A DNA stretch of 44,749 bases from Planctomycetota bacterium. GTDB lineage: Bacteria > Planctomycetota > Phycisphaerae > WQYP01. Below the pieces are notes generated by a model. It was given only the letters and a program-made list of their open reading frames with translations. It was not told the origin of the DNA and did not search any database. Both the position numbers and the translations under genes were made by a program. Of this stretch, positions 12,922 to 42,400 are shown in pieces. Every line of letters starts with the position of its first letter. Position 1 is the stretch's first letter. Location: NCBI GenBank assembly GCA_021805985.1, contig JAJZDN010000031.1, forward strand, positions 1 through 44,749, read 5' to 3'.

Positions 12922-13354
12922 AATTTCCGAAACCCGTTCGGCATTGATTCCCCTGAACCTCGCTAAAGTCTAATCCACAGCGGCCTAACCGGCTACCCCG
13001 CGGGTGGCCCGGTGGACGACAAGGTCCAGCATTTGGGAGAGTATCGCGGCATAGAGCACCGTGGTGATCACCCGGTGGTCAGTTCGCAACACCAGATCAA
13101 CCACCGGATTAATCATCGGTGCTCTGCAGGTAGCGGCAATGATGGCGTACGCACACGCCCCATGCGGCGCCAAGACATCTTGCGGCAATGCGACTAAACT
13201 AATCGGCGGTAATAAATGATTGAAAGGCTTAAATGTATTGGGATGTTTCGGTAGCCGCAAACTTGAGCGTGTGTCAGGGCGAGGAATTTTATGGCGAAAT
13301 CAGGTCCTGCATGAAGACCGGACAGAGCTGCCAGCTGCGCAGGTGGAGTTACCG
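12922..13354. other. divergent intergenic region between the L-like gene and the acyltransferase
   Basis: These 433 bases must hold the promoters of both divergent units. I see no convincing -35/-10 pair. The only clear structure is hairpin repeat copy 3 at 13054-13124. An in-frame TTG at 13220 would extend the acyltransferase by 45 residues but has no ribosome site and encodes no recognisable domain. Confidence 0.6.
13054..13124. repeat. 71-bp hairpin repeat, copy 3, the most symmetrical
   Basis: Starts GAGCACCG and ends CGGTGCTC, with inner arms TGGTGATCACCCGGTGGT and ACCACCGGATTAATCAT, giving an almost continuous stem of about 26 base pairs around a 17-19-base loop. It is the same element as copies 1 and 2, about 7.6 kb away, but with a different loop. 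Its position between two divergent genes shows that the element is not tied to gene ends. Confidence 0.8.
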
Positions 13355-14140
13355 ATGAAAGATTTACCGCTTCCGGTCTATAGTCCGATCGTGGCGGCTA
13401 TGGCCCGATGGTACGTCCCGCACTTTGTACGCAAGGCCTTCCATGCCGTGCGCCTGGATGCCCAAAGCGTGCTCCCCCCGGCGGTTACCCCCACGGTTAT
13501 TTATTTGAATCACCCCTCCTGGTGGGACCCACTGATTGGCGCGGTGATGGCGTGCCGATTTTACCCTCGGCATAAACACTATTGCCCGATAGATGCCCAA
13601 TCCCTCACGCAATACCCGATCATGCGCAAGTTAGGCTTTTTTCCCGTGCATAAAAACACCGCGCGTGGTGCGGCTGATTTTTTGCAAGCCAGCCGAAGCG
13701 TATTGCGGCATAATAATGCCATGCTATGGGTAACGCCGCAGGGCGATTTTGTGGATTCTCTGGTTCGTCCCGTTACACTTAAGCCCGGCTTGGGACATCT
13801 GGCAAGGGATATTCGCCCCATAACTTTTGTACCCATGGCGGTAGAATATATTTTCTGGCAGGATCGCCTCCCGGAAGCTCTGATTTCCATTGGAGCACCC
13901 ATCAATCCAGATATTCATGAGGATAAAACAGCGGCCCAATGGACAAAACTTCTCGCGGCCGAGCTTGAAAATCGCCAGAATGTTTTGCGCGACAAGGCCG
14001 TCTTAAGATCCAGCGATGGTTTTACTACGCTGTTGGAGCGCCAATCCGGTGTGGGGGGAATTTATGATTTGCGCTTGCGATTCGGCGGCAAAAAGCCTCT
14101 ATCGACTCCTGCAAGTCCGGCAGAACGGGACCGTTTATGA
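13355..14140 (+). CDS. PlsC-like lysophospholipid / glycolipid acyltransferase
   Basis: A 261-residue acyltransferase of the PlsC superfamily. The catalytic HX4D motif is NHPSWWDP (His53, Asp58); TPQGDF around residue 129 stands where PlsC has FPEG, and VPMAVEY follows as in the family. It moves an acyl chain onto a hydroxyl acceptor at the inner membrane. The downstream glycosyltransferase starts inside its stop codon (ATGA), so the two proteins are made together. This pairing occurs in carotenoid glycosyl ester formation (CruD/CruC, CrtO/CrtQ), the most attractive reading, though no carotene synthesis gene is in view. Start: GGTGGAG lies six bases before ATG 13355; the longer frame from TTG 13220 lacks support. 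Confidence 0.85.
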   Translation: MKDLPLPVYSPIVAAMARWYVPHFVRKAFHAVRLDAQSVLPPAVTPTVIYLNHPSWWDPLIGAVMACRFYPRHKHYCPIDAQSLTQYPIMRKLGFFPVHKNTARGAADFLQASRSVLRHNNAMLWVTPQGDFVDSLVRPVTLKPGLGHLARDIRPITFVPMAVEYIFWQDRLPEALISIGAPINPDIHEDKTAAQWTKLLAAELENRQNVLRDKAVLRSSDGFTTLLERQSGVGGIYDLRLRFGGKKPLSTPASPAERDRL

Positions 14141-15261
14141 TGCTGCCGATTTTAGTGATGATGGCTCTGTTTCTAGCGGGTGTTCCGGCCGTACTGCTGA
14201 CGGTGAATCTTCCCTTATTCCGTGCACCTGATCCCGGAGCACCAGGCGGCCGCGTTCCTGAACTGTCAGTTCTGATCCCCTCGCGAAATGAGGCTGACCA
14301 TATCGGGGCGGCTATGCAATCGGTTCTGGCCAATCAAGATGTGACGCTTGAATTAATTGTTCTCAACGACCAATCCACCGACGCAACCGCCGACATCGTG
14401 CAAACTCTGGCCGCTGGGGATTCCCGCATTACGCTGATAAACTCGTCCGCGCTGCCGGAGAACTGGTGCGGCAAACAACACGCCTGCTGGCAGTTAGCCC
14501 AGCAAGCCCACTATGAGTTGATGGTATTTATGGATGCCGACGTTGAACTTGCACCCAATGCCTTGGCGCGCATGGCCGGATTCATGCAGACCCGGGAAAT
14601 AGCACTGGGCAGCGGATTTCCGTTGCAGAAAACCCAAAGCTTGTTTGAAAAACTCCTGATTCCCCTGATGTACTTTATTCTCCTGGGTTTTCTGCCGCTG
14701 CATCGGATGAGAAAAAGTAACGATCCGGCGTACAGTGCCGGGTGCGGGCAATTATTTATCGCCAGGAAATCTGTTTATATGGCCGTCGGGGGACATAGCG
14801 CCATCCGTGCTTCCCGCCATGACGGAATCACCCTGCCCCGCGCCTTCCGGCAGGCGGGATTTGCCACCGATATTTTTAATGCCAACAACTTAGCTTCGTG
14901 TCGGATGTATCAATCTGCGGGTGAGGTATTTCAGGGATTGGCGAAAAATGCCACGGAAGCCTTGGCGTCGCGAAAAATGATTATTCCGGCAACGATTATT
15001 CTTCTGGGCGGCCAAGTTATGCCGTTAATTTTGCTGATTATCGCAGTGCTGCTGCACGCCGCGCCGGTCATCATTGTTTTCGCGGCGATTGCTACCGGAC
15101 TAGTTTACTTGCCGCGGATGTTCCTGACGATCCGGTTTCGACAATCAACGCTCGGAGCCATCTTGCATCCGTTGGGAATTTGCCTGCTGGTGGTTATTCA
15201 GTGGTACGCTTTGCTGCGGCAACTGCTGGGCAAAAACATCGCATGGCGCGGCCGGGCGTAA
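14137..15261 (+). CDS. family 2 glycosyltransferase, CruC/CrtQ/HpnB-like
   Basis: Membrane-anchored GT2 glycosyltransferase of 374 residues. Order: an N-terminal membrane helix (about 4-25), GT-A fold start LSVLIPSRNEADHI, LIVLNDQSTDATADIV, the ALPENWCGKQHACWQL segment typical of HpnB/CrtQ-like enzymes, the metal-binding VFMDADVEL, an acceptor loop AGCGQLFIARKSVY, and at least three C-terminal helices (about 285-360). Likely donor is a nucleotide sugar and the acceptor a lipid such as a carotenoid or hopanoid. This is inferred from family and from the coupled acyltransferase, whose stop overlaps this start by four bases. It converges on the alcohol dehydrogenase gene with 29 bases between. 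Confidence 0.88.
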   Translation: MMLPILVMMALFLAGVPAVLLTVNLPLFRAPDPGAPGGRVPELSVLIPSRNEADHIGAAMQSVLANQDVTLELIVLNDQSTDATADIVQTLAAGDSRITLINSSALPENWCGKQHACWQLAQQAHYELMVFMDADVELAPNALARMAGFMQTREIALGSGFPLQKTQSLFEKLLIPLMYFILLGFLPLHRMRKSNDPAYSAGCGQLFIARKSVYMAVGGHSAIRASRHDGITLPRAFRQAGFATDIFNANNLASCRMYQSAGEVFQGLAKNATEALASRKMIIPATIILLGGQVMPLILLIIAVLLHAAPVIIVFAAIATGLVYLPRMFLTIRFRQSTLGAILHPLGICLLVVIQWYALLRQLLGKNIAWRGRA

Positions 15262-22123: not shown

Positions 22124-22161
22124 TTAGCTCAATGCGGCAGCGTTGCGTTCGCAGCGGAAAT
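22124..22161. repeat. 38-bp dispersed repeat, copy B
   Basis: Shares 32 of 38 bases with 16617-16654. Here it covers the last ten codons and the stop of the AMP ligase gene (minus strand ISAANATLPH then TGA), so the repeat supplies the end of a protein. Confidence 0.6.
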
Positions 22162-23475
22162 TCGTCGATCAATAAATCGTGCAGGTTTGCGAGGGTTGGC
22201 CGTGCTTTGCAGTTCGCGGATAGCAGAGATACTGGAAAAGATAATTTTTGGCTGAACTTTTAACAGCGCCCGAACAGTTAAGGCCAAGCGATCGCGGATG
22301 GCTGAACTGTTTTTGATTAAACATACGTGCAGTTCTATGCGATCACTTAAATCATGCTCACGATGCGCGATAATGGCATAGTCGCGCACCTCGCTGATCC
22401 CGTTCAGGCAGTCGGCAATGGCAGAGGGAAACAGGCTGGACCCACGCACCTTTAGCAATTGCCGCTTCCGTCCCACGATCGGTCCGAGGCGCGGTGTGGT
22501 GCGGCCGCAGGGGCACGGATCGGTATACAGTGCGGCTATATCGCCGGTGCAGAAGCGTACCAGCGGCATACCCTCCACGCCCAGCGGTGTAACCACTACC
22601 TCACCCATGGTGCCAGCGGCGACCGGCGCGCCTTGATCATCTATTATTTCCACGACCGCTAAGGCAGGATTCAAATGCCCCCCCACACACAATGGCCCTT
22701 CGGCAAAGGTGGAGCAGGTTTCCGTACACGCATACGTGCTAAGCGCGCATACCCCCAGATTATCCTTTAATCGCAACGCCAATGCATTGGGACTCAGGGC
22801 AGCGTTGCGTAAAGGCTCTCCAATCCCGATGACGGCCTGAATTTCCGAGGCTAGCGCGCCGCGGGATGCAGCACTTCCGGCACCAGCCAGCAGCGATGGA
22901 ACGGTGATGACAAACGTCCGGGTACCGCGCTGCAGGAGAGATTGCAAAATATCGATCTGCGCAGAATACGCCGCCCCCGCCCGAATGCAGGCTGCGCCTA
23001 ATTTCTGCGCGCCCAGCCAATAAGCCAAACCTGCAACAAACATACGATCCAGTGCCAAAGCTAAAATCAGAGTGTCACCTCGGCTTAGCCCCGCGATGTT
23101 CAACGCAACCGCCTCATTTTCTGCCAGGCGATGCAGATCCTTTTCGGTAAGTGGAACGCGCAGCGGCTTGCCGGTGGTACCGGAAGTGGTAACCCATTCC
23201 CGCACATGTTGGCTTTTGCAGGCAAAGGCGGCGTCGCCGGCGGCGGCCAGTTGATCTTTATGCGTCAGGGGAAATTCAACAAGATGGTTTAGCGATTTGA
23301 TGGTGCCGGGAAGCACCCCGGTGTAATAGGGCGACTTGCCCGCGTGGGCAATATGCCGGCGCAGGGCCTCAAGCTGCAGGGCCTGCCAGCGTTTTACCGG
23401 CCAGAATAAATGCGTGCCGACCTGCAGCGTCTGTCTTTTGCCTGATCTATTACCTATTGTGCCATTGTTTTTCAC
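22129..23475 (-). CDS. PaaK-like AMP-dependent acyl/aryl ligase
   Basis: Adenylate-forming enzyme of the phenylacetate-CoA ligase group, 448 residues, activating a carboxylic acid with ATP for transfer to CoA or a carrier protein. Motifs: WVTTSGTTGKPLRVPLT (P-loop-like, 94-110), STYACTETCSTFAEGP (aromatic/Glu box), RFCTGDIAALYTDPCPCGR (TGD plus the CPCG metal-like site), IVGRKRQLLKVRGSSLFPSAI (hinge and C-domain). It is the last gene of an operon after the MMPL exporter, 15 bases from that stop. In aryl-polyene and dialkylresorcinol clusters a similar AMP ligase loads the aromatic starter; that role here is inference. Start GTG 23475. Its last ten codons coincide with a dispersed repeat. Confidence 0.88.
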   Translation of the reverse strand: MKNNGTIGNRSGKRQTLQVGTHLFWPVKRWQALQLEALRRHIAHAGKSPYYTGVLPGTIKSLNHLVEFPLTHKDQLAAAGDAAFACKSQHVREWVTTSGTTGKPLRVPLTEKDLHRLAENEAVALNIAGLSRGDTLILALALDRMFVAGLAYWLGAQKLGAACIRAGAAYSAQIDILQSLLQRGTRTFVITVPSLLAGAGSAASRGALASEIQAVIGIGEPLRNAALSPNALALRLKDNLGVCALSTYACTETCSTFAEGPLCVGGHLNPALAVVEIIDDQGAPVAAGTMGEVVVTPLGVEGMPLVRFCTGDIAALYTDPCPCGRTTPRLGPIVGRKRQLLKVRGSSLFPSAIADCLNGISEVRDYAIIAHREHDLSDRIELHVCLIKNSSAIRDRLALTVRALLKVQPKIIFSSISAIRELQSTANPRKPARFIDRRISAANATLPH

Positions 23476-23490
23476 AGGGTGTCCCGAATA

Positions 23491-26400
23491 CTATTTCGAA
23501 TCAAAGTTTATAGTCAACAGCAAACAATGGCCAGCATCCCAGATAATTACTTTTTGCGGAACATAGCCACGTTGATAGTGCAAATATTGCATTTCAAGGT
23601 TCTCACGCGAATGGCAAATACGGCAGAGGTGCAACTTTCCAGCCGACCCGGCAAACAGGTAATGGGTCTGATGAAGCGTTCCGGAAAGTACGTGCGTGCC
23701 CTTCCTGAGAGTCATCGTCTGGAGCGCCGCCATCGCAGGCAGGCGCAGCGCTAAAGCGGTATCCACCCCAATTTGCCGCGCCAGTGTTTCCGGAAGAGCT
23801 GCGGCCTTGTGCAGCACCTGACAAATGTTTGGTGTAACCCGCACGTCACAAAGCAATGTTCCAAATTCTGAAGCACACGTTACCCGCAGCGTGCCCAGCG
23901 ATTTCCCTTTTATTCTGCCGATCATGCTTACGCGATGACCATGCCAATTTACCGCCGCAAAAAATTGCCGATCCCATTGGCGTGGAAATTTTGCCAGAGC
24001 ATGGTGTGCCGCATCGCGGGTTGGCGGAGGATCTGTCGGAGGGCGATACGCCTGCGGCGGCGGCACGCTGCAACAACCTCCCAGAAGACCGACCACCAGA
24101 ATCACCAGCGCCAAAACCACAACGATTCGCCAGGCATTTAATACCGTCAAATAAATCCGTTTGTTCCTGGGGGATGCCGGTGGATTAAGAACAATCCTTA
24201 CCAGCGGCCCTACGACAAAATAACTCGCCAGATAGCCGCCCAGAATTCCCGCAGTCAGCGTCATGCCAATCCAATGCAGCACGGGGTGACCCGCCAGAAT
24301 CATTGCTGCGGTGCCCAGAATCGTCGTTGCGGCGCACAGAAATGTTGCGGAACTGCGATTTTGTAGTGTGGCGCCGCTGGGACCCAGGGACGGATCGCTG
24401 GCGGCATAAATGCCATAATCTACAGCCACCCCCATGGTAAAAAGTATCGGCACCAGACAAAGAAGGTTTAAGCCCCCGCCCCACCACTGCGCCACGCCCA
24501 GCAGCCAGATAAAGCCGATGCCCAGAGAAAGAACAGCGATAGCCGCAACGTCCAGCCGTCGAAAATAGATCCACATGGGAATCAAAATAAACAGTATCAC
24601 CCAGGGGAACAAGCGCTTGGCTTCCAACTGGGCATGATGCGATGCATTGAGATACAGCACCTGCCCGCAAATGATGGAAACGCCGGGAACGCCATGCCGT
24701 ACATCGGCAGCCCATAGCGTGGCAAGCTTTGGCGACAGAGATGTATTGAGTTCCACCGTCGAAGAAATGGAAATGTCACGCGGGAGAATAGCGATGACGC
24801 CCGGAAATAGCGTTGCCGGCGATTGCTGCAATCGATGCATCGCGGCCGCATTCTCGTGCTTGGATTCCCATGACTTGAGTGTGGAATCGAAAGCGCTTGC
24901 GCGCAAGCCATTGGCGATAGCGGCGTGCGCCAGGAGCACTCGAGCATGGGCTATTTGTTCAGGCGTAAAAAACGCCCGCCATGCGTCTAACCGCCTTTGC
25001 GCGGTAAGTGCATCGGGAAGAATGGCAGATGCTGTGGTATATCCGGCAATTAATCGCTTAGCCTGCAGCACGCCAAGCAGATGATTTAATGCGTGCAGTT
25101 GCGCCAACGCCCGATCAGCGGACGCCTGGTGAATCGTAATCACCCCCGATTGCCGCAAATGCCCCCATACGGCCGAAAATTTGGCTTCGTCATGCTTAAG
25201 TGCCATCGATGAACCATCTAAGGATTGCCCGTTGGTGGTATAGCCCACGGCGATCGCCCGGCTTCCCAGCCATAGCGTACTGACAACAAAGGCCGATGTT
25301 GCGATGAACTTCAGTAATCCGGGATGAAGCCATTGATTCAAGCGGCGCGACAAGTACCGCGGATTTCGCGGATCACGCGGATTACCAGAGGGCGCTACCC
25401 GGTTGTTCGGGCTATAATCAACCACATTCCCCCGTTCGGATTCCGGTGCGATCTCATGAGTTAAAGATGCTTTCTGCGCTTTGATCAGTTCGCCACCACC
25501 GCGAACTATTTTATCCGCGCTATTTACGTAATCCGCGGCCCGGCATACCCAAGCCCCCAGATAAGCCGGTAAAACCAGAAATGTCACCAGCCAGATACAG
25601 CCAGTGGCCCCGGCAATAAAAAGTCCCAGCGTCTGTAACCCCGGGGCGGAACTCGCGGCCAAAGCTCCGTAACCTGTCATGCTGGTACATACACTCATGG
25701 AGATGGGACCAAATAAATCCCTGGCGGCTAAAGCCGGCATATCAGTTTCGTACCGCCCGGCCTGTTTTACGCGCCTCTGCAATGCCGCAATAAGCTGAAT
25801 GCCGTAATCGGTAGTGGCCCCGCAGAGCAAACCATCAAACCCCAGGACGATCAACGGAATATGCAGGCGGAACAGACCCGCAAGGCCCAATGCGGCACCC
25901 AGCCCTACCATGGGCGGAATCATGCAGAGAACCACCGAACCAACACGGCGGAAATACCACGCGATAACCCCGGCCACCAGCAGCGATCCTAGAATTGAAA
26001 TCATTTTCAGATTGCGCTTTACCAGCCGCTGATTCTCAACAAAGTTACGATAAGGCCCCACGATCCAGACGCGTAAAGCCGGCATTTGCTTTTTCACTGA
26101 GGCAATCGCGGTGCGAATGGTGGCGAGCATTTTTTCCGACGCCGCGACATTCTCAGGTCTGAAGGGAGGCACCAGGATCATCATCGCATGGCGGCCATCG
26201 GCACTGACCAGCAGCGGGCCGGAAAAGTGTGATCCCGCCCCCGCATGAACGGATTTAAATTGCGCCCGCAGCAGTTGCCGCATGTCCAGTGGATCAGCCT
26301 GCAATTCTCCGGCCACAATTTGCCCGGCCGGTCCCGCGATTTTCTGCACCTGCCGGTGAAAATAATGATCCAGCCAAGTGAACGACAGCCGGCGGCGGAG

Positions 26401-26862
26401 ACGATCCATTTGCAACCGCGAGAGCAGAATTGGTGCGCTATTCTGTAAACCCGCTTGTGCTTTGAGTTGCTGCGATACCGGCGCGCCGTACCAGACTTTT
26501 GAAAACGCGTGAGTGTTTTTCAACGCTTGCCCCAACCAGCGCACCGCCGATTTCAAATTCCCCTTTTTCCCCGAAGCCAAATGCACATCCAGCCGCATGG
26601 CATCGGCCAAACCGTTACGGTCCTCGGACAGGCGTACATCATGAATGGAGGCGCTGTGTGCGGAAAAAAAACTCAGCAGACTGGTCTGCCACACAATGTT
26701 CCGCGATGCAGTAAACAGCAGAACGCCCAGCACCAGCAGCACCGCGGTTAAGCCAGCGCGTTGCCTCTGCAATCGCCCATACCACCAGACCATCCAACGC
26801 GTGAGTGGATCAGGCTTAGGGCCGGAATCGCCCGCAACGCTTGGGCTATCGGTTGGCCTCAT
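23491..26862 (-). CDS. MMPL/RND lipid exporter fused to a lipoprotein-like domain
   Basis: A 1123-residue protein. Residues 1 to about 910 are two repeated RND/MMPL halves, each with one leading helix, a periplasmic loop and five clustered helices. Landmarks are GFDGLLCGATTDYGIQLIAALQRR in the first half and LVPILFTMGVAVDYGIYAAS in the second, with charged residues in the paired helices for proton-driven transport. The linker between the halves (about 441-502) is partly encoded by two CGCGGAT-type repeats. After about residue 895 comes WRIVVVLALVILVVGLLGGCC, which looks exactly like a lipoprotein signal with lipobox LGGC. About 190 residues follow, resembling the DUF3261-type lipoprotein of aryl-polyene clusters. 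The start ATG overlaps the stop of the LolA-like gene (ATGA). It probably extracts a lipid-like product from the inner membrane. Confidence 0.88.
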   Translation of the reverse strand: MRPTDSPSVAGDSGPKPDPLTRWMVWWYGRLQRQRAGLTAVLLVLGVLLFTASRNIVWQTSLLSFFSAHSASIHDVRLSEDRNGLADAMRLDVHLASGKKGNLKSAVRWLGQALKNTHAFSKVWYGAPVSQQLKAQAGLQNSAPILLSRLQMDRLRRRLSFTWLDHYFHRQVQKIAGPAGQIVAGELQADPLDMRQLLRAQFKSVHAGAGSHFSGPLLVSADGRHAMMILVPPFRPENVAASEKMLATIRTAIASVKKQMPALRVWIVGPYRNFVENQRLVKRNLKMISILGSLLVAGVIAWYFRRVGSVVLCMIPPMVGLGAALGLAGLFRLHIPLIVLGFDGLLCGATTDYGIQLIAALQRRVKQAGRYETDMPALAARDLFGPISMSVCTSMTGYGALAASSAPGLQTLGLFIAGATGCIWLVTFLVLPAYLGAWVCRAADYVNSADKIVRGGGELIKAQKASLTHEIAPESERGNVVDYSPNNRVAPSGNPRDPRNPRYLSRRLNQWLHPGLLKFIATSAFVVSTLWLGSRAIAVGYTTNGQSLDGSSMALKHDEAKFSAVWGHLRQSGVITIHQASADRALAQLHALNHLLGVLQAKRLIAGYTTASAILPDALTAQRRLDAWRAFFTPEQIAHARVLLAHAAIANGLRASAFDSTLKSWESKHENAAAMHRLQQSPATLFPGVIAILPRDISISSTVELNTSLSPKLATLWAADVRHGVPGVSIICGQVLYLNASHHAQLEAKRLFPWVILFILIPMWIYFRRLDVAAIAVLSLGIGFIWLLGVAQWWGGGLNLLCLVPILFTMGVAVDYGIYAASDPSLGPSGATLQNRSSATFLCAATTILGTAAMILAGHPVLHWIGMTLTAGILGGYLASYFVVGPLVRIVLNPPASPRNKRIYLTVLNAWRIVVVLALVILVVGLLGGCCSVPPPQAYRPPTDPPPTRDAAHHALAKFPRQWDRQFFAAVNWHGHRVSMIGRIKGKSLGTLRVTCASEFGTLLCDVRVTPNICQVLHKAAALPETLARQIGVDTALALRLPAMAALQTMTLRKGTHVLSGTLHQTHYLFAGSAGKLHLCRICHSRENLEMQYLHYQRGYVPQKVIIWDAGHCLLLTINFDSK
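25356..25384. repeat. CGCGGAT-type dispersed repeat, copy d, inside the MMPL gene
   Basis: ACCGCGGATTTCGCGGAT then CACGCGGATTA: three cores in 29 bases. On the coding (minus) strand this is read as GNPRDPRNPRY in the inter-half linker of the exporter, so the repeat is translated. Confidence 0.55.
25509..25538. repeat. CGCGGAT-type dispersed repeat, copy e, inside the MMPL gene
   Basis: TTTTATCCGCGC then TATTTACGTAATCCGCGG. On the coding strand it is read as ADYVNSADKIV in the same linker as copy d, 125 bases away. Together they bracket a linker segment of about 60 residues. Confidence 0.55.
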
Positions 26863-27683
26863 GGCGGTCCCACCGGTTCAAAAAGTTTCGGCACCAGGTG
26901 CGGATTAAGCCGGGTACGGCGTAACCAGAACATACTTTGATCGCCATTTTTTGCCACAATACGGATATATAGTAATGGCTTAGCTCCGGCTTGCTGCCCC
27001 GCTGCCTCCTTGCCCGCTGACGGGGCAAAGCCAAGCTGAATCTCACGGATAGCCTCTTGGAGCACCCCGCCGCGCGGGCGCAAGGTAAACAGCTCAAGGG
27101 CTGGGCGTATTTTTTTATTCACTACGGAACCGGCTGGCGCATCTTTGGGCACCGGCCGATTGGCGCGCTGCACGCTGACCTGAAATTTCCGGCCGACTTT
27201 ACCCGTGTTACCCAAAGACCACGCCGCGAATTGCTGCAGCATAATCCCAATCGCCGGCTGCGAATCCACTGAACTGGTGCGCCAATGCGCATTGGATTCA
27301 TTACGCATGTCAATATGCCGCCCGTTAAGAATATAGCAGGAGCGATACGGCCAATTCGTTGCAAAGCGAACCCGGCTGGGTCGGGCAATGGTAATAATTC
27401 CCCTGCTGAAGAAAGGCTTCCGGAGCACCTGCAACTTCTTTTCGCATAAAAAGGCGGACTGAATTGATTTCACATTTCTCATCGCAGCGAGCGTCTTTAC
27501 CAGGTCCCCATTTGCCGCCCCCCGGGCACTTGGTCCAGCAATAAGCGTTGCCCCGCCGCGAAGCCACACGAACATCAAGACGCCAAAAAAGGCAACAGCG
27601 AATATACGCCCGCTCGTGCCCCGGCGTTTTCCCGAGCCGTACAGAACGTTGGTTATCAGATCAGACACGCCATGTATTTCCAT
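26859..27683 (-). CDS. LolA-like outer-membrane lipoprotein carrier family protein
   Basis: A 274-residue protein with one N-terminal membrane helix (about 27-41). The mature part then begins with a LolA/LppM-like beta-barrel segment: IQSAFLCEKKLQVLRKPFFSRGIITIARPSRVRFAT, where family members have F---K-L--L-rPL-S-G---F-RP--L-W. In aryl-polyene clusters a LolA-like protein of this sort stands directly before the MMPL exporter, as here (four-base overlap). It may ferry the hydrophobic product from the exporter across the periplasm. It has no lipoprotein-sorting neighbours (LolCDE), so a housekeeping LolA role is unlikely. GAGG four bases before ATG 27683. An insertion of about 25 residues with PKDAPAGSVVNKKIRPA separates strands and is unusual. 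Confidence 0.78.
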   Translation of the reverse strand: MEIHGVSDLITNVLYGSGKRRGTSGRIFAVAFFGVLMFVWLRGGATLIAGPSARGAANGDLVKTLAAMRNVKSIQSAFLCEKKLQVLRKPFFSRGIITIARPSRVRFATNWPYRSCYILNGRHIDMRNESNAHWRTSSVDSQPAIGIMLQQFAAWSLGNTGKVGRKFQVSVQRANRPVPKDAPAGSVVNKKIRPALELFTLRPRGGVLQEAIREIQLGFAPSAGKEAAGQQAGAKPLLYIRIVAKNGDQSMFWLRRTRLNPHLVPKLFEPVGPP

Positions 27684-27722
27684 ACCGCCTCACTAGCACG
27701 CCAGCTTTTTACAGTTCGCCGC

Positions 27723-30700
27723 TTAGAGCGACTGAACTATCTGCTGCCAGCACCATATCATACCGGAAAGACCACTACTTGATCTGGAAATTCGCGTCAG
27801 AATTTGGCGATAGAGGATCTTTATTTCGCGGGTTTTGCGAAACGCCGGATAGAGTTTGATGGCGGCCGCCATTTGTGCCTTCGTCCTGGAAAATGGTGTT
27901 GCAGGTTCGCGAAGCCTCAGCAGCGCGGCTTCCGTGATTGCTTTAATAAACCGGTGGTGCGGCGGACTGTTGGGCGAAAGTATGGCTTGTGACAACCACG
28001 CCTCGGCGCCGTCACATTGACTAAGAACGGCCGCATCCGCAGCCAGCCACAGGGCATGGATTGTGCGGTCCGCAGGATCGCCATCGATTTTCATGGCGAA
28101 CGTACTAACATCCCTTGCCTTAGCCCGGCTGCCCATAGCGCGGTACGTTGTAGCAAGGTTGCCCAGCATCCAGGCCTTTACGTCCTGGCGTTGGCGCCAA
28201 TCCCGCATCCAGTTGATCAACCTGCGACGACGGCCGAAGCGCTTTAACGCATAGCCAATTTTTCCCCACAACTCGGTATTTTGACGCAAGACCTTGCGGT
28301 AGCGACGAATAAGCGATCCGAGCATCGCGAAGTTATTGGTGTTGACAATCTGTTGAATAAATTCGAGCATGGCTGTGCGAAAACTCTCGGTGTGGGGATC
28401 TAAAGAAGCGATAAACGCTCGGCACAAATTCCACCGCCGATGCCGCGCCAGACAACGTACACACACTTCGCTGATCAGCGGGTTGCAATCATCTTGATTT
28501 AATGCGTCACGGACGTAATATCCGATTGAATCACCCCATTTTTTTCCTACCAGCACGTCGAAGGCTCGCTCAAACATCCAGGTTTGGGCCGAAGAGATCC
28601 GGCACAATGCCTGAAGCTCGACCATCGCCAGCCTCTTATCCTTGCGTGCGGCGGCAATCTGCAGTCGGGCCAGGGCAGCGCGTTCCGGCGCGGCGTGTTG
28701 GCCCAGTTGCTTTTCCCACTTTGCCGCATCGGAAACTTTACCGGCTGTCAAATCCATATCCAGAAGATTCTCAATGGCGTAGGTATAGGCTGCGTCCAAT
28801 TCCACAGCGCGTAGAAAACTTTTGCGCGCTTCCGGTAAGGACCCCTTTCCGCGAAGCGCATCGCCGAGATAGCCGTGCGCCACCGCATTGACGGGCCACG
28901 TGCGGACAAGAGTTTCTGCGGTGCGGAGATATTGGTTTTTATCGCCCGCGCCCTGATACCACTCCGCCAGGCGGCAGATTCCCCAAAAATAGTGAGGCGA
29001 CTCGCGGGTCAACGCAGCCATATCTTCGATGGCCTGATGATGGTTTCCACGCTGGTATTGAATCCATGCGGCGCGACCTCGCAACTGGAACGGTACATCA
29101 CCGTTGAATACTGCGGGGTGACATGCCGCCAGGGCTTCTTCCACACGACCCGCCTCGACCAATGCGGCGGCACGTTCATCGTAGGCCTCAATACAACGCG
29201 AATCAGCCGCGATGGCCCGGTTGTATGCGGCCATCCGTTCTTCCTGTTGTTCGGGCAAGTACAGCATGTGTGCCAGATTCAACCACATACGGCTTTCACC
29301 GCCGCGACTTTCCGTAAGCCGCCGGGCTAACGCCAGGGAAGCGTCCGGTGCCTTGAGTTCGCGGCTCCAATTTCTCAGTGCGTCCCATCCCCACGGGTAG
29401 TCTGGCTCGCGCTCAAGCGCATCCTGTAATTGCTGGACCGCCTTTTGCCTCGCTCCCATTCGCCAAAGCACATCGGCCAACAGGCCTTGATTTCGCACGT
29501 CGAAGGGGCTGCGGGAAATAATTTCCTCCAAAACGGTTCGGGCATTCACCAGGTCGCCACCCCGTATATGCAACGCCGCGAGTTGCCGGGCGGGGATGCT
29601 CCAGCATCGATTAATCTCCAGCGCCTGCCGTAATGCGCTGCGCTCACGGTCCGTATCGGCCATAGCCCGATATACCCCGGCCAAATCCAGCCACAGCGCG
29701 GGCAACAGGCTGAACTTTTCTGCGGCGGCACAACCGTGGCGCTGAGCTTCCTCCAGTTTTCCCATCTGCGTGAGTTGCTGCGTTACCCCGGACCAAGCTT
29801 GCCATAAATCCGGTCTCGCCTGAAGTGCCGCCTGAAGGGAGGCCAGCACCTCATCGGCACTAAGTATTTGCGCGGCCTGCTGGCGATACGCCTGGAGACA
29901 TTCCCCAAAAATCGTTTGGCGGACAATCTCGGCATGTACAAACGCCAGAGCTGCCTTCCGCTGCACGGGAGAATTTTCACTGGCCAGCAGCTCATGGATG
30001 GCCGGCGTGTAGTCGACCGAAAGGCTGATCGCCCGCTTGAACGCGGCCACCGCCTCGGACGGATTTCCCCGCCGTAAAGCCACTAATCCGGAACAGTAAT
30101 GCGCCGCGGGATTGTTAGGCTCCAGCGTCAGGGCCATTTCCGCCTCGGCGACGGCCTGGTCTGACTTCTGCAAACTCAGCAGCGCCGCCACCAGTTCCCG
30201 ACGTGACCAGCCGTCCTGCGGATGCAACTGTATTAACTGCCGAACCGAGGCTTCATAACGGTGCGGCAGTTGATCCCGGAACCAGATGACCCGCAGTTGG
30301 AGAAGAGGGTAGTGGTACGGAAAGCGGGCGCAATGGGCATCCAGATAAGACTCGGCAGCCTGGGCACCGACGCTTTGTGCCAACAGGTCAGTCACCCTCC
30401 GCAGAGCGTCCATCGCCAGGGGTTCGGCGGCCACAATTTTTTGCCACAGTCCCAACGCCTCGCGCGGTTCACCTTTGTAGAGCACCAAATCGGCTGCCAC
30501 CCGCAACCACTCACGTTCCGAACAACGCCCCTTAGCGCGTGCCATGCAGGCATCCGCCTGGGTCAATCGACCATGGCGTGCATTGCTGCTGCCGGCAAGC
30601 AGCAGCAACGAGCCATCGTCGGGGCGCAAACCAAGGGCCTCGTCCAGCAGGGCGAAAGCCTCAGTGGTGCGATCCAATGCGTCCAGCGCCCAGAACAGCA

Positions 30701-32696
30701 TTTCCGCCGGCCGCCCGGTAGTGGCACCGAATTGTTTAAATCGCTCCCTGAGCATTTCCAGCACGTCGGATTCCTGCTTAAAGTGCCGACAAGCGGCAAA
30801 ATAAGAACGTGCAAAGTTCTCATTTTTATCGTCGAGACAACATGCAAACCGATAAATCTCCAAAGCCCCCTCAAAGCGGCGCTGCTCCCAGAATACGGAG
30901 GCCAAATCCGAATAGGCAGTGGCGGCCAGCGGCATCGCCCGAATGACCCGGCGCAACATCCGGCGGGCCGCGGTGTGTTCCCGCGCGTCATGCATAAGCT
31001 CTTTGGCATACATCTCGCGAAATATCGGATGAGCTGTTGAAGGTTCGCATATTTTTCCAAGCATTTCGATGCGTTGATCCCGACGCGCCAGAGTCTTCAG
31101 GCATTGCAGCTTCGCGATCAGCAATCCAGAATCCGCCGGAAAGGGGGCAAGGAGTTTCTCATAACAACCAAGCAGCGCCACGGGATCAGCATCGTAAGCG
31201 GCAATCGCCTGTTGGGCCGTAAGCGTAATGCGGTGTTCCGGTGCCACGGCCTGCAGGTTGGCACAGGCTGCACACGCGGCATCACGATCATTTCGATGTA
31301 ATGCGGCGTTTAGCGCGTGAAGCTGATCATAAAGCGATTCATCGCACAAGCTGACTTTATCCAGAAGCTGCTTTTTTTCCTCCGGGACCAGTACAATTCC
31401 CAGCGGCCCGGTAGAGGCGTAGCGTTCCAGCGTGATGTCCGAGACAAATTCGACTACTGAACGAATGTAGGGATCTCGAATAATCAGTGTTCCGCGCAGA
31501 TCGTCGTAGCCGATAACCGCCTGCAGATGAGCGCTGCCGGGTTCCACCGTAGAGATCGCAAAGGGTACGCCCTGGTCAATAAGAGCTTTAGTGGTCTCCC
31601 ATGTCACGCAAAATTCGCGTACCAGCCAGCCGTGCTCATTGGCCCATTGCCGCAGTGCGTGATTGGGCGTGCCGTCGTAACAAATTTCTTTTGCCAAAGT
31701 CTGCTGATCCACCGGCTTCTGCCAGAATCGACCCAGGCAGGCCACCACCGCGGGTCCGCAGGTCATGTGATGTTGCCTTACAAAACCCACGGGCAACATC
31801 ACCCGCTTGCTGTTTTTATCAGCGGATTTTATTGCCACGGCAACTTTCTGATAGAAACGATTTTTAGATTTTTCCGCCAAATCGGCAGCAGCCGAATAAT
31901 CGGCGCAAAAATAGGCCGCGTCTGACCGCATTCCGTAAAGCCAGTCACGTACTTTTCTGTCCATCAGCGGGGCCAGGTCAATGGCCCGGGAATAGTTCAA
32001 CCGCGCGTCCTGATAGTGACGCATTTCGGTCTGTAATGCCGCCAGTTGCAATACCAGGGCCATACTTTGATTTTGCGCACTGGCCTGTCGCAAAAGCTCC
32101 AGCGACTGCTCTTCCTGATCCAACAATTGCATCAAATGGGCTGCGGATTGTACCGCGGGCCGGTACCATGGGCGGATCTCCAACCCGCACATGATTACCG
32201 ATCGAGCCTCATCGTAGCGATCCTCCCGCTCCAATACGCCGCTGTGCTCCACGGCCAGCCAAGCATCATCCGGGTGAAGCTCTTCGGCGGCGGCCAACAT
32301 GCGGTGTGCGCCTTTGAAGTCCCGCAAAGTTCCTAAAATGCGGGCTTTCAATGCGTACCAATGAGCCTGTAATTCAAGTGATGCACTACTGGGCATCGCA
32401 TGGTCGCGAAGAAATTGCCACGCCTCCAGCGGGCCGCGCTGACCTAAAATTACGAACGCATAATAATACCAGGCTTCTGGTTCGCCCGGATGTTCGCGAT
32501 GGGCTAAATAGTGCAAGGCTGCTCCCATCTGCCCCCCACCCAGATTTCCCGCCAGCCGGCCCGCCATTATTCGCCCCGCAACCCCTTTCCATTGTGGCAA
32601 CGGGGCCAGGTTGCATCCCTTCTCATAAGCCTGGAGGTATAGACCCGCCTCGTAAAGCTTTAACACCTCTTGGAGTTGCTCACCGTTAACTTGCAA
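27723..32696 (-). CDS. giant TPR protein with an embedded C39-type cysteine peptidase domain
   Basis: 1657 residues, almost entirely tetratricopeptide-like helical repeats (for example YDEARSVIMCGLEIRP, PSEAVAAFKRAISLSVDY, LPEARKSFLRAVELDA). Between repeats, about residues 298-430, lies a peptidase C39-like domain: VGFVRQHHMTCGPAVVACLG gives the nucleophile Cys313, then SAHLQAVIGYDD (His390) and LIIRDPY (Asp408). All three triad positions are filled. No signal peptide or membrane helix is seen, so it is probably cytoplasmic. It is first in the operon with the LolA-like protein (39 bases downstream), the MMPL exporter and the AMP ligase. Start TTG 32696 has AAGGAG seven bases upstream. Role unknown: it could process a peptide or serve as a scaffold for the pathway. 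Confidence 0.88.
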   Translation of the reverse strand: MQVNGEQLQEVLKLYEAGLYLQAYEKGCNLAPLPQWKGVAGRIMAGRLAGNLGGGQMGAALHYLAHREHPGEPEAWYYYAFVILGQRGPLEAWQFLRDHAMPSSASLELQAHWYALKARILGTLRDFKGAHRMLAAAEELHPDDAWLAVEHSGVLEREDRYDEARSVIMCGLEIRPWYRPAVQSAAHLMQLLDQEEQSLELLRQASAQNQSMALVLQLAALQTEMRHYQDARLNYSRAIDLAPLMDRKVRDWLYGMRSDAAYFCADYSAAADLAEKSKNRFYQKVAVAIKSADKNSKRVMLPVGFVRQHHMTCGPAVVACLGRFWQKPVDQQTLAKEICYDGTPNHALRQWANEHGWLVREFCVTWETTKALIDQGVPFAISTVEPGSAHLQAVIGYDDLRGTLIIRDPYIRSVVEFVSDITLERYASTGPLGIVLVPEEKKQLLDKVSLCDESLYDQLHALNAALHRNDRDAACAACANLQAVAPEHRITLTAQQAIAAYDADPVALLGCYEKLLAPFPADSGLLIAKLQCLKTLARRDQRIEMLGKICEPSTAHPIFREMYAKELMHDAREHTAARRMLRRVIRAMPLAATAYSDLASVFWEQRRFEGALEIYRFACCLDDKNENFARSYFAACRHFKQESDVLEMLRERFKQFGATTGRPAEMLFWALDALDRTTEAFALLDEALGLRPDDGSLLLLAGSSNARHGRLTQADACMARAKGRCSEREWLRVAADLVLYKGEPREALGLWQKIVAAEPLAMDALRRVTDLLAQSVGAQAAESYLDAHCARFPYHYPLLQLRVIWFRDQLPHRYEASVRQLIQLHPQDGWSRRELVAALLSLQKSDQAVAEAEMALTLEPNNPAAHYCSGLVALRRGNPSEAVAAFKRAISLSVDYTPAIHELLASENSPVQRKAALAFVHAEIVRQTIFGECLQAYRQQAAQILSADEVLASLQAALQARPDLWQAWSGVTQQLTQMGKLEEAQRHGCAAAEKFSLLPALWLDLAGVYRAMADTDRERSALRQALEINRCWSIPARQLAALHIRGGDLVNARTVLEEIISRSPFDVRNQGLLADVLWRMGARQKAVQQLQDALEREPDYPWGWDALRNWSRELKAPDASLALARRLTESRGGESRMWLNLAHMLYLPEQQEERMAAYNRAIAADSRCIEAYDERAAALVEAGRVEEALAACHPAVFNGDVPFQLRGRAAWIQYQRGNHHQAIEDMAALTRESPHYFWGICRLAEWYQGAGDKNQYLRTAETLVRTWPVNAVAHGYLGDALRGKGSLPEARKSFLRAVELDAAYTYAIENLLDMDLTAGKVSDAAKWEKQLGQHAAPERAALARLQIAAARKDKRLAMVELQALCRISSAQTWMFERAFDVLVGKKWGDSIGYYVRDALNQDDCNPLISEVCVRCLARHRRWNLCRAFIASLDPHTESFRTAMLEFIQQIVNTNNFAMLGSLIRRYRKVLRQNTELWGKIGYALKRFGRRRRLINWMRDWRQRQDVKAWMLGNLATTYRAMGSRAKARDVSTFAMKIDGDPADRTIHALWLAADAAVLSQCDGAEAWLSQAILSPNSPPHHRFIKAITEAALLRLREPATPFSRTKAQMAAAIKLYPAFRKTREIKILYRQILTRISRSSSGLSGMIWCWQQIVQSL

Positions 32697-39090: not shown

Positions 39091-39487
39091 CCAATTCGAT
39101 ATATCAGCAAGTTACATGTGAGGCTGAACTTAGGCATGTTAACAATACCGCAAAACCAGGTTGCCTCCATGCTGAGGGTCGGACCGGGCCGACTGGGCCT
39201 TTCCCTGCGCGCCGGTGAGGCAGCTTATTTCACGGCGGAATTTGCGCAGCACCTAGTTCGCGGAATCGCGCCAGGTAAGACTCGCAGTGAATTAAATCGG
39301 CAGCGAGAGCAGGCCGCACGACAGCAACTTTCGCACCAGCGCCGGGAATGCTGCCACGGCCGTCGGTTGCAAGGATGATGTATCGCGCCGCGCCGGGCGG
39401 GTGCGGAAAAAGGTAAAAAACAGTGACGCGAGGGCCGCGCGTAGCGGCTGCCACCGCTGCCCGGTCGGAATATCGGAGACCGATACC
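39091..39487. other. 397-base leader region before the RHS gene
   Basis: Downstream of the predicted promoter. A plus-strand frame (GTG 39118 to 39378, 86 codons) starts where transcription would begin but has no ribosome site and no family resemblance; minus-strand frames here continue into the RHS gene and are shadows. I see no riboswitch-like or repeat structure. Confidence 0.45.
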
Positions 39488-42400
39488 ATGAGCTACCAGC
39501 CAAACAATCCTTGGCATCCGACGACACCTTGCCCTTCCTGCCCGTGCCCGATGCCGTTCGGCGGTGGCCTTGGGAGCCCTGGCGGTGTGCCAACTGCAAT
39601 CCTAACTGCAGCGGCATCGGCCGTCAGCGGCGGCACGGGCACCCAGCCCGCTCCCGGCGCCGCAGCAAGACCGCTCGGCAGTGGTGCCAGCAGGCCCACC
39701 CCAACCTTGGCGGCCGGGATGCCAGGCGTTTCGCTGGGGAATGGCCAACTCACCTTCACTATTGACCTTATGGCGCTTGCCGCCTTGGGCGAAGGTGCTT
39801 GGTCACTGGATCTGAATTACCTTTCCGGAGCCGGACTGGATTCAGTGTTGGGAATCGGATTTAATTTTACGCAAGGCCCGGTCCTTAGCGCCATTCCCGG
39901 CGGGGTACAGATCGTAAGCGGTGCCAACTCATTGGAGACCTTTGCTGCATTGGGCAGCGGCCAATACTCCTCGGCGGGCAATAACACCGCCTCCACGCTT
40001 GTCCGCAATAACATTGGCCTGATTACGGAAACTTTTACACTCACCAGCGGCGCCGGCACCGTCGCCACTTATTCTGGAATAAATTCGCTGATTGCCGTGC
40101 CGGGCAGATTAGTCGCCTCCGCCGACCGTTACGGCAATACCCAGACGTTCGCCTGGGCCATGGCCGGGGCTGCTGCACAATTGACCAGCGCCACCGACAG
40201 TTATGGCCGCACTGTCGCCTACAGCTATTTCGGCCCGGAATACCAATACAAACTTCAACAGGTCACCGATTACCTTGGTCGGCAGGCGAACTTCCAATAC
40301 GATTTCGCGGGCCATCTGATCGCGGCGGTGCTGCCAGGCATCAACAAGGCCATATCCGGCAACACCTTCCCCGGCGGCACAGCATACGTGTTCCAATATG
40401 ATGTCAACAATCCACGAACCCAGCGGCAGAACGATCTGATCGCGATCTGGTATCCCAATGAGGTTCAGCCCTATCTGAACGCCACGGCCGGCAGCACCGG
40501 ATTCCGCACTGTGGACACCGCTTCGGTTTATGCCTCCGCAATCCCGCGATACCAGATCTCGTACGGCCAGGATCCCACCGACGCCGACATGTGGGGCCGG
40601 GTAAGCAGCGTCACCGCCGGAGGCGGACCCACCGGGGCAGGCGGAACAGGGAGCTATATTTACACCTCGGATCCTGCCGAGCTTCCCGCCAACATCACCA
40701 ATCCCAACGATCCCATTGTGTTTCGAGCTGTCACCACAGATCGCAATGGCAACCAATGCACCTTTGACTTCAACGCCAGTTCCATGCCGGTACGCGTCGA
40801 ACAACTGGCCACACGAAGCAAACTGACCGTCAACAACACCTCATTCCCAGCCCCAAGCTGGGTGACGTGGAACGTCTATGGCACCAACAACCTGGTTGCC
40901 GCGACCGTTTACCCCGAAGGAAACAGTGTCCAATACGCCTATGAAAACGGCACGGTGCCGAATCTGGGCACGCCAAATAATTTCTACGCCCCGCGCGTCG
41001 GCCTACTGTTGTCCGAAACCCACCTGCCGGGCAACAGCTACAATGTCCCCTCCTATCGTTCCGGCAGCGGCGGGCAGGCCATGCTCACGCGCCGGTACTT
41101 TTACGACCCGATATTCAATCAGCAATGCGCGATCATTGAAGAACGCGGCAACCCGATTGCCGTCAACGGCGGCGCAAATGTTTATTATATCCCGCAAAAT
41201 GGAACCGCCGTGCCCACGGACGCCAACCGTTCCGCCTACGCCACCATCACCTATTTTGATTACCAGAAAAATCAGACTTCCACCATTATCGACGACGCGC
41301 AACTTCAAAGCCTGCTGGGCCTGACGGCGGCGCAAATTCAAACACTGATAACCTATGTCAACAACCAGATGACCAACACCACCGGCACGGGCGGTATTCC
41401 GGCGGGCTTTCAGACCAACCTCGGCGATATCAACGGTGACGGCACGGGTAATGGCACCGGCGGCGTGGGGCCGCAGGAAGCGGTGGCTGCGCCGATGGTC
41501 GGCAGTATCGTTAAAATCCAAAATCCATCCGCCACGGTCATTGGTGCAACCAGCACCACCACGCAGAGCCGCATTGAATTATTTACCCTCAACGCGCGCG
41601 GCCAGACCACCACGTATACCGACGGCGAAGGCAACGTCACCGTCTATGTGCGTTACCCGGAAAATGATCCCAACGGCGACGGCACGATCAACCCGAATAT
41701 TTCCAGCCAACAATATGGCCAGCTGCGCGAAGTACATGTGGATGCGGATCCCAACGAGGTCATGAGCCTGGTGGGCGCTTCGGGCGACCTGCTTTCGTTC
41801 AACCAGTCCGCGTTGATAGCCCGCACCAACACGCCTGGCGTGTATCAGGATTTGATCACACGCTTCGAGGGCGACAGCCCCGCCTCCACCGGATGCGTCA
41901 CCTGTGCCTATGACGCCCTGGGAAATCCTACGGCCGTAACCGATCCGCGCGGCTTCACCGCCATCGTTGAACGTAACGAAATGGGCGGGATATACCGCAC
42001 CATCAGCCCCGCACCGTACAACTTCACGGTTGAAACATACTATGACGCCAACGGCAACGTCACCCGCGCCGATACGCAGGATATGCAGGTGCAGTACGAT
42101 TCAAGCGATCCGACCAGCCCGGACTACGGCCAGTTCACACCCACCGGCAGCGGCTTTACCGCCCATGCGCCGATGATTGCCGGACCGGGCGGCACGGTGC
42201 GGCCAGGCTGGTTTACCAATTTGTACAGCTATAACATTCTGGATTGGAAAACCCAGGATGACATCGACGCCACAGGGTCCAATCCGGCCAATTTAATAAC
42301 AGCCTACAGCTTTGATCCCAACGGTAATGTTATCCAAGTCACCAGACCCGAGGGCAATATTATTGAATACGATTACGACGAACGCAATATCCGCATCGCC

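Follow-up and report, generated by a model that had tools for sequence, protein, structure and literature searches.

A probable activation and export module for an aryl-polyene/flexirubin-type lipid in an uncultured Phycisphaerae family, its exporter fused in one genus to a predicted LolB-like lipoprotein domain

The aryl polyene proteins ApeL (LolA), ApeM (RND) and ApeN (LolB-like, DUF3261) of Escherichia coli have been proposed to transport lipid to the outer membrane (PMC8253772). In the flexirubin pathway, the ligase FlxY activates 4-coumarate, and the flxP-U genes include a LolA protein and an exporter (PMC3992019). For Phycisphaerae, one arylpolyene gene cluster is predicted in the isolate P. 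mikurensis (PMC8882080), and a review of planctomycete metabolites makes no mention of aryl polyenes (PMC12078418).

The window analyzed here (44,749 bp) corresponds to contig C167 in its entirety, one of the 197 contigs in a Phycisphaerae MAG of 4.68 Mb (95.5% complete, 3.6% contamination), whose nearest named records are Phycisphaerae/Phycisphaerales MAGs of the Planctomycetota. Four minus-strand ORFs (Table 1), with junctions of 39 bases, a 4-base overlap and 15 bases, match the Pfam domains TPR plus Peptidase_C39_2, LolA, MMPL and AMP-binding. The single operon described in an earlier note on this DNA is thus reproduced exactly in its positions and spacings, and its domain assignments agree with the profiles. 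The gene order is kept in genomes of the same genus and the LolA-MMPL-ligase order across the family, which argues that the arrangement is not due to chance. Inside the contig, the operon is flanked by about 22 kb on the left, where an acyltransferase and GT2 pair is found at 13220-15261, and by about 12 kb on the right.

Table 1. Features of the operon, in window coordinates
Feature	Position	Strand	Evidence
PaaK-like AMP ligase, closest NCBIfam model FlxY (flexirubin acyl-CoA ligase)	22129..23475	-	FlxY 352.8 bits
MMPL/RND exporter (ApeM-like) fused to LolB-like lipoprotein domain	23491..26862	-	MMPL Pfam; ApeM profile
Predicted LolB-fold outer-membrane receptor domain (ApeN-like)	23494..24072	-	AF2 model, fold search
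Extra hydrophobic helix and internal lipobox VGLLGGC, about residues 913-931	24073..24126	-	Hydropathy, alignment
LolA-like periplasmic carrier (ApeL-like)	26859..27683	-	PF03548, LolA2_flexi partial, ApeL profile
TPR protein with C39_2 papain-like domain	27723..32696	-	Pfam, synteny, tree
C39_2 domain, residues 303-410, conserved Q/C/H/D residues	31467..31790	-	Pfam, alignment

This operon probably supplies starter activation and export for an aryl-polyene/flexirubin-type lipid pathway, with the synthesis half placed at other chromosomal loci. The order LolA, RND exporter, LolB-like lipoprotein is the one found in the E. coli CFT073 cluster (apeA-R; ApeL-ApeM-ApeN), whereas here the LolB part is fused to the exporter, the synthase genes are on other contigs, and the ligase is at most weakly ApeH-like. 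Likeness to the flexirubin cluster of Chitinophaga pinensis (flxA-Y) includes a PaaK-like ligase closest to FlxY, the LolA2_flexi-like carrier and the exporter. In profile comparisons, the exporter matches ApeM with 97.7% probability, its two DY pairs (D352-Y353 and D815-Y816) being invariant. The LolA gene matches ApeL with 64% probability, reaches 25.5 bits against 23.6 for PF03548, and matches the LolA2_flexi model partially.

A different reading of the same genes would be that LolA, the MMPL protein and the LolB-like domain belong to the general lipoprotein-sorting or hopanoid transport machinery, the ligase being incidental. The LolA gene may have a general lipoprotein-carrier role, since it is the sole PF03548 match in the genome, and the predicted LolB fold also fits such a role. 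However, although the exporter shares the MMPL/RND superfamily with the hopanoid exporter HpnN, it scores 44.7 bits against a model cut-off of 751.85 and lies in another gene context, so that the assignment to a hopanoid transport family raised in the earlier note is rejected. Moreover, the ligase accompanies the exporter throughout the family, and G001 and G015, which lack the ketosynthase, lack the exporter as well, all of which makes this reading highly improbable.

The new element of the operon is its architecture, in which exporter and LolB-like lipoprotein are fused, with an intact internal lipobox at the join. The hydropathy of the pump is consistent with 12 transmembrane helices plus an extra 13th helix ending in VGLLGGC, and the lipobox is kept in all six of the same-genus fused proteins inspected. 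The domain that follows is predicted to have a LolB fold (AF2 pLDDT 92.2), its top PDB matches being the LolB structures 8cm1, 9tpm and 9rlg; its profile gives no significant match to E. coli ApeN, so the fold assignment comes from structure prediction instead. In other genera, the lipoprotein is a separate protein that has an ordinary signal peptide and bears the lipobox at its N-terminus. Other genera instead have a C45 Ntn-hydrolase attached to the pump, and at least one of them adds a TPR tail. In the present genus, the LolB part forms a C-terminal extension of the pump that follows the 13th helix and its intact lipobox, and so may either be cleaved off and lipidated once made or stay tethered. 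We tentatively propose, at slightly less than even chances, that one polypeptide comprises both exporter and LolB-like receptor, which would either be cut by lipoprotein signal peptidase inside a membrane protein or be left as a tethered pump-receptor handing lipid across the envelope.

Regarding synthesis, the earlier note had reported no polyketide enzymes for over 20 kb on either side of the operon. Profile searches indeed give no ketosynthase or ACP match on the contig, but because the window is the entire contig, the right flank covers only about 12 kb and the absence is bounded by the contig ends. The polyketide enzymes are not missing but unlinked to the export operon: a search of the genome retrieved seven ketosynthase matches, none on the window contig, together with ACPs, which bears out the first of the two options left by that note, a synthase elsewhere in the genome. 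On contig C52 (L011:11793-15386), a 262-aa CLF-like protein, a 371-aa ketosynthase, a PlsC-type acyltransferase, a FabZ-like dehydratase and an ACP are encoded, and an adjoining LpxL-type acyltransferase gene extends the set to 16732. A second ketosynthase pair on contig C40 (L012:8672-12153) consists of a ketosynthase and a CLF-like protein next to a halogenase-like flavoprotein (FAD). The Cys-His-His triads are intact in the ketosynthases of C52 and C40, and the Cys is absent from their CLF-like partners. A tandem ketosynthase pair on contig C109 was set aside, as another pair matches better and genomes without the module contain comparable 450-aa frames.

The C52 genes resemble those of the E. 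coli CFT073 cluster, with ApeO-type ketosynthase, ApeE-type ACP and ApeD-, ApeP- and ApeJ-type partners. The best NCBIfam model of the ketosynthase, PRK09185, is also the best model of genuine ApeO, and that of the ACP, PRK09184 (64.7 bits, cut-off 70), is the best model of genuine ApeE, with which the ACPs share a GLGLDS motif. Profile matches were obtained for the acyltransferases to ApeD (98.8%) and the C-terminal acyltransferase of ApeJ (99.5%), for the ACP to ApeE (97.6%) and for the dehydratase to ApeP (91.5% probability). On the other hand, the CLF-like partner gives no significant profile alignment with ApeC, and no pathway-specific, ApeQ-type ketoreductase was identified among the loci examined in this genome, where the only ketoreductase seen is a FabG-like gene (41% identical) at a fatty-acid locus on contig C175. 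Evidence against contamination comes from the genus, in which the C52 synteny is kept in three genomes (G002, G006 and G007) and the C40 gene order in two (G002 and G006).

The two halves occur together in relatives. Over 61 genomes, the exporter and orthologues of the C52-type ketosynthase are both present in 24 and both absent in 34, with three discordant cases (24/1/2/34), giving a Fisher value of 1e-13 with relatedness ignored and of 0.02 within the family alone. In the discordant genomes, the gene for the exporter is cut short by the end of its contig (G016), the assembly is 69% complete (G021) or the exporter match is weaker (G028). The genes do not form a single contiguous cluster here, being on three separate contigs, whereas they are contiguous or partly so in three relatives. 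LolA-MMPL-ligase adjoins ketosynthase, CLF, ACP and LpxL genes in G013; lipoprotein-ligase adjoins ketosynthase, CLF, ACP and PlsC genes in G016; and in G028, of another family, ketosynthase genes, two ACPs, DH, KR-like, LpxL, ligase, MMPL and LolA lie within about 24 kb. A looser version of this linkage, with lower identities, is found in G050. Also, a deacetylase-like sequence adjoins the ketosynthase in G013 and G016, a further likeness to the C. pinensis flexirubin cluster. Together with the Ape and Flx profile matches and the predicted LolB fold, the co-occurrence with the ketosynthase upholds the proposal that LolA, MMPL, lipoprotein and ligase form an activation and export module of the aryl-polyene/flexirubin type.

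The ligase is retained alongside the exporter across the family. Its score against FlxY (Table 1) lies below the NCBIfam cut-off of 520; its structure matches are the phenylacetate-CoA ligases 2y4o and 4r1l, and its match to ApeH is weak (71 columns, 50% probability in profile comparison), the protein being FlxY/PaaK-like instead. As sources of an aromatic starter, an ammonia-lyase and a chorismate lyase were sought but not found: there is no match to PF00221 in the genome or in the 17 family relatives searched, in difference to C. pinensis with its tyrosine ammonia-lyase FlxA, and no match to UbiC in the genome, in difference to the E. coli cluster. The starter is therefore only putatively aryl, and the same type II enzymes could make a non-aryl acyl lipid for export (a plain polyene, an unusual fatty acid or a ladderane-like lipid), the ligase activating an alkyl or other acid. 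The linked cluster of G028 agrees with this, as it carries a ladderane-associated radical SAM protein scoring above the TIGR04072 cut-off. Nonetheless, among the loci examined this protein was found in G028 only, and not near the family's ketosynthase or exporter loci; aryl acids can have other sources, such as XanB2-type chorismatases; and the closest model of the ligase is that of an enzyme reported to act on 4-coumarate in C. pinensis (PMC3992019). A non-aryl product thus appears rather unlikely.

The TPR-C39 gene, which the earlier note suggested as a new component of the module, is not supported in that role. If it were a true functional component, for example a papain-like enzyme or a scaffold acting on the pathway, its conserved catalytic residues would fit, as would its position 38-39 bases upstream of lolA in six of six genus members having the gene at the site. 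However, in one genome of the genus (G007) it is absent from the whole genome while the operon with exporter and ligase is kept, lolA directly adjoining a DNA polymerase III delta-like gene with matching upstream sequence; as this genome is nested among TPR-C39 carriers in both trees, the absence represents a clean loss. Moreover, the gene is absent from 18 of the 25 exporter-bearing genomes, its presence among module-bearing genomes being limited to one genus and one unlinked fragment. A homologue occurs in 14 of 397 genomes of the class, and no exporter or ligase was found near the homologues at six loci of other families and in G060. Profile, synteny and tree reject TPR-C39 as a core part, and a functional role in the pathway is very unlikely; the gene is best regarded as a dispensable neighbor, the member of a separate family that stands in this operon in most of one genus. 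It shares TPR and C39_2 domains with the PA2778-family cysteine peptidases, but its 48.4 bits fall short of the cut-off of 150 for that family, and the best-matching stretch is confined to the TPR part. A structure model of residues 1-432, built on five sequences, has a pLDDT of 52, too low for use.

In the aryl-polyene/flexirubin-type pathway that we favor, the FlxY-like ligase would adenylate a carboxylic acid starter, probably aryl, and the unlinked C52 synthase (ApeO-type ketosynthase, CLF-like partner, ApeE-type ACP and dehydratase) would extend it to a polyene, assisted by the flavoprotein and second ketosynthase pair of C40. Once joined to a lipid anchor by the PlsC- and LpxL-type acyltransferases, the polyene would be extracted from the inner membrane by the MMPL pump (ApeM), ferried through the periplasm by LolA (ApeL) and taken over at the outer membrane by the LolB-fold domain (ApeN). 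This scheme builds on the gene content, order and homology, on the predicted LolB fold, and on linkage and co-occurrence among relatives; its substrate, product, cleavage and individual biochemical steps are inferred. Counting against this pathway are a draft assembly in which the export, C52 and C40 loci each lie on a contig of their own, a ligase below the FlxY cut-off that is only weakly ApeH-like, and CLF-like proteins and a LolB domain that lack profile matches to ApeC and ApeN.

Finally, these results would extend pathways of the aryl-polyene/flexirubin type to an entire uncultured family of Phycisphaerae. With its genes divided among several loci, such a pathway would tend to escape cluster finders that look at single loci. 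If pump and receptor do form a single polypeptide, the architecture would be new among RND lipid exporters, and the fusion of an exporter to its own outer-membrane receptor could be tested here.

The large proteins that join tetratricopeptide repeats to a C39_2 papain-like domain (TPR-C39), found at six loci and about 1,500 to 1,840 aa in size, constitute one family that is scattered over the Phycisphaerae. On the side of the ketosynthases, the DAHP synthase-like gene is conserved at 95–99%, being limited to the genus. In the second tandem ketosynthase pair the first member lacks the active cysteine, and frames similar to this pair turn up across the class, unaccompanied by the export module. 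Also, in G028, a relative from another family, the cluster around the ladderane-type radical SAM protein is otherwise aryl-polyene-like.

Within the window, the acyltransferase and GT2 pair has no homologue among the related loci compared, and it could have a role in carotenoid or glycolipid synthesis.

Finally, the gene for the MMPL exporter reaches about 1,400 codons in several genera. For loci L061 and L062, the extension is an AAT domain of the C45 autoproteolytic Ntn-hydrolase type; the L062 exporter also bears a TPR tail. This C45 extension may provide a thioesterase or acyltransferase step.

Positions of the features discussed (L-numbers denote genomic loci)
Feature	Position	Strand	Remark
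Large TPR-C39 proteins	L090:8755, L144:6209, L145:2168, L146:5735, L147:9787, L148:6074		
B12 radical SAM protein, ladderane-type	L100:13623-14975		G028; TIGR04072, above cut-off
Long MMPL exporter gene	L061:7238-11446		
Long MMPL exporter gene	L062:3757-8028		
Long MMPL exporter gene	L055:1305-5585		
Acyltransferase and GT2 genes	window 13220-15261	+	4-base overlap
ORF with RHS repeat	window 39401-44749		at least 1,783 aa; continues past contig end
DAHP synthase-like gene	L011:10747-11769		adjoins C52 ketosynthase; likeness judged by eye from gene start
Second tandem ketosynthase pair	L010:7880-10585		contig C109
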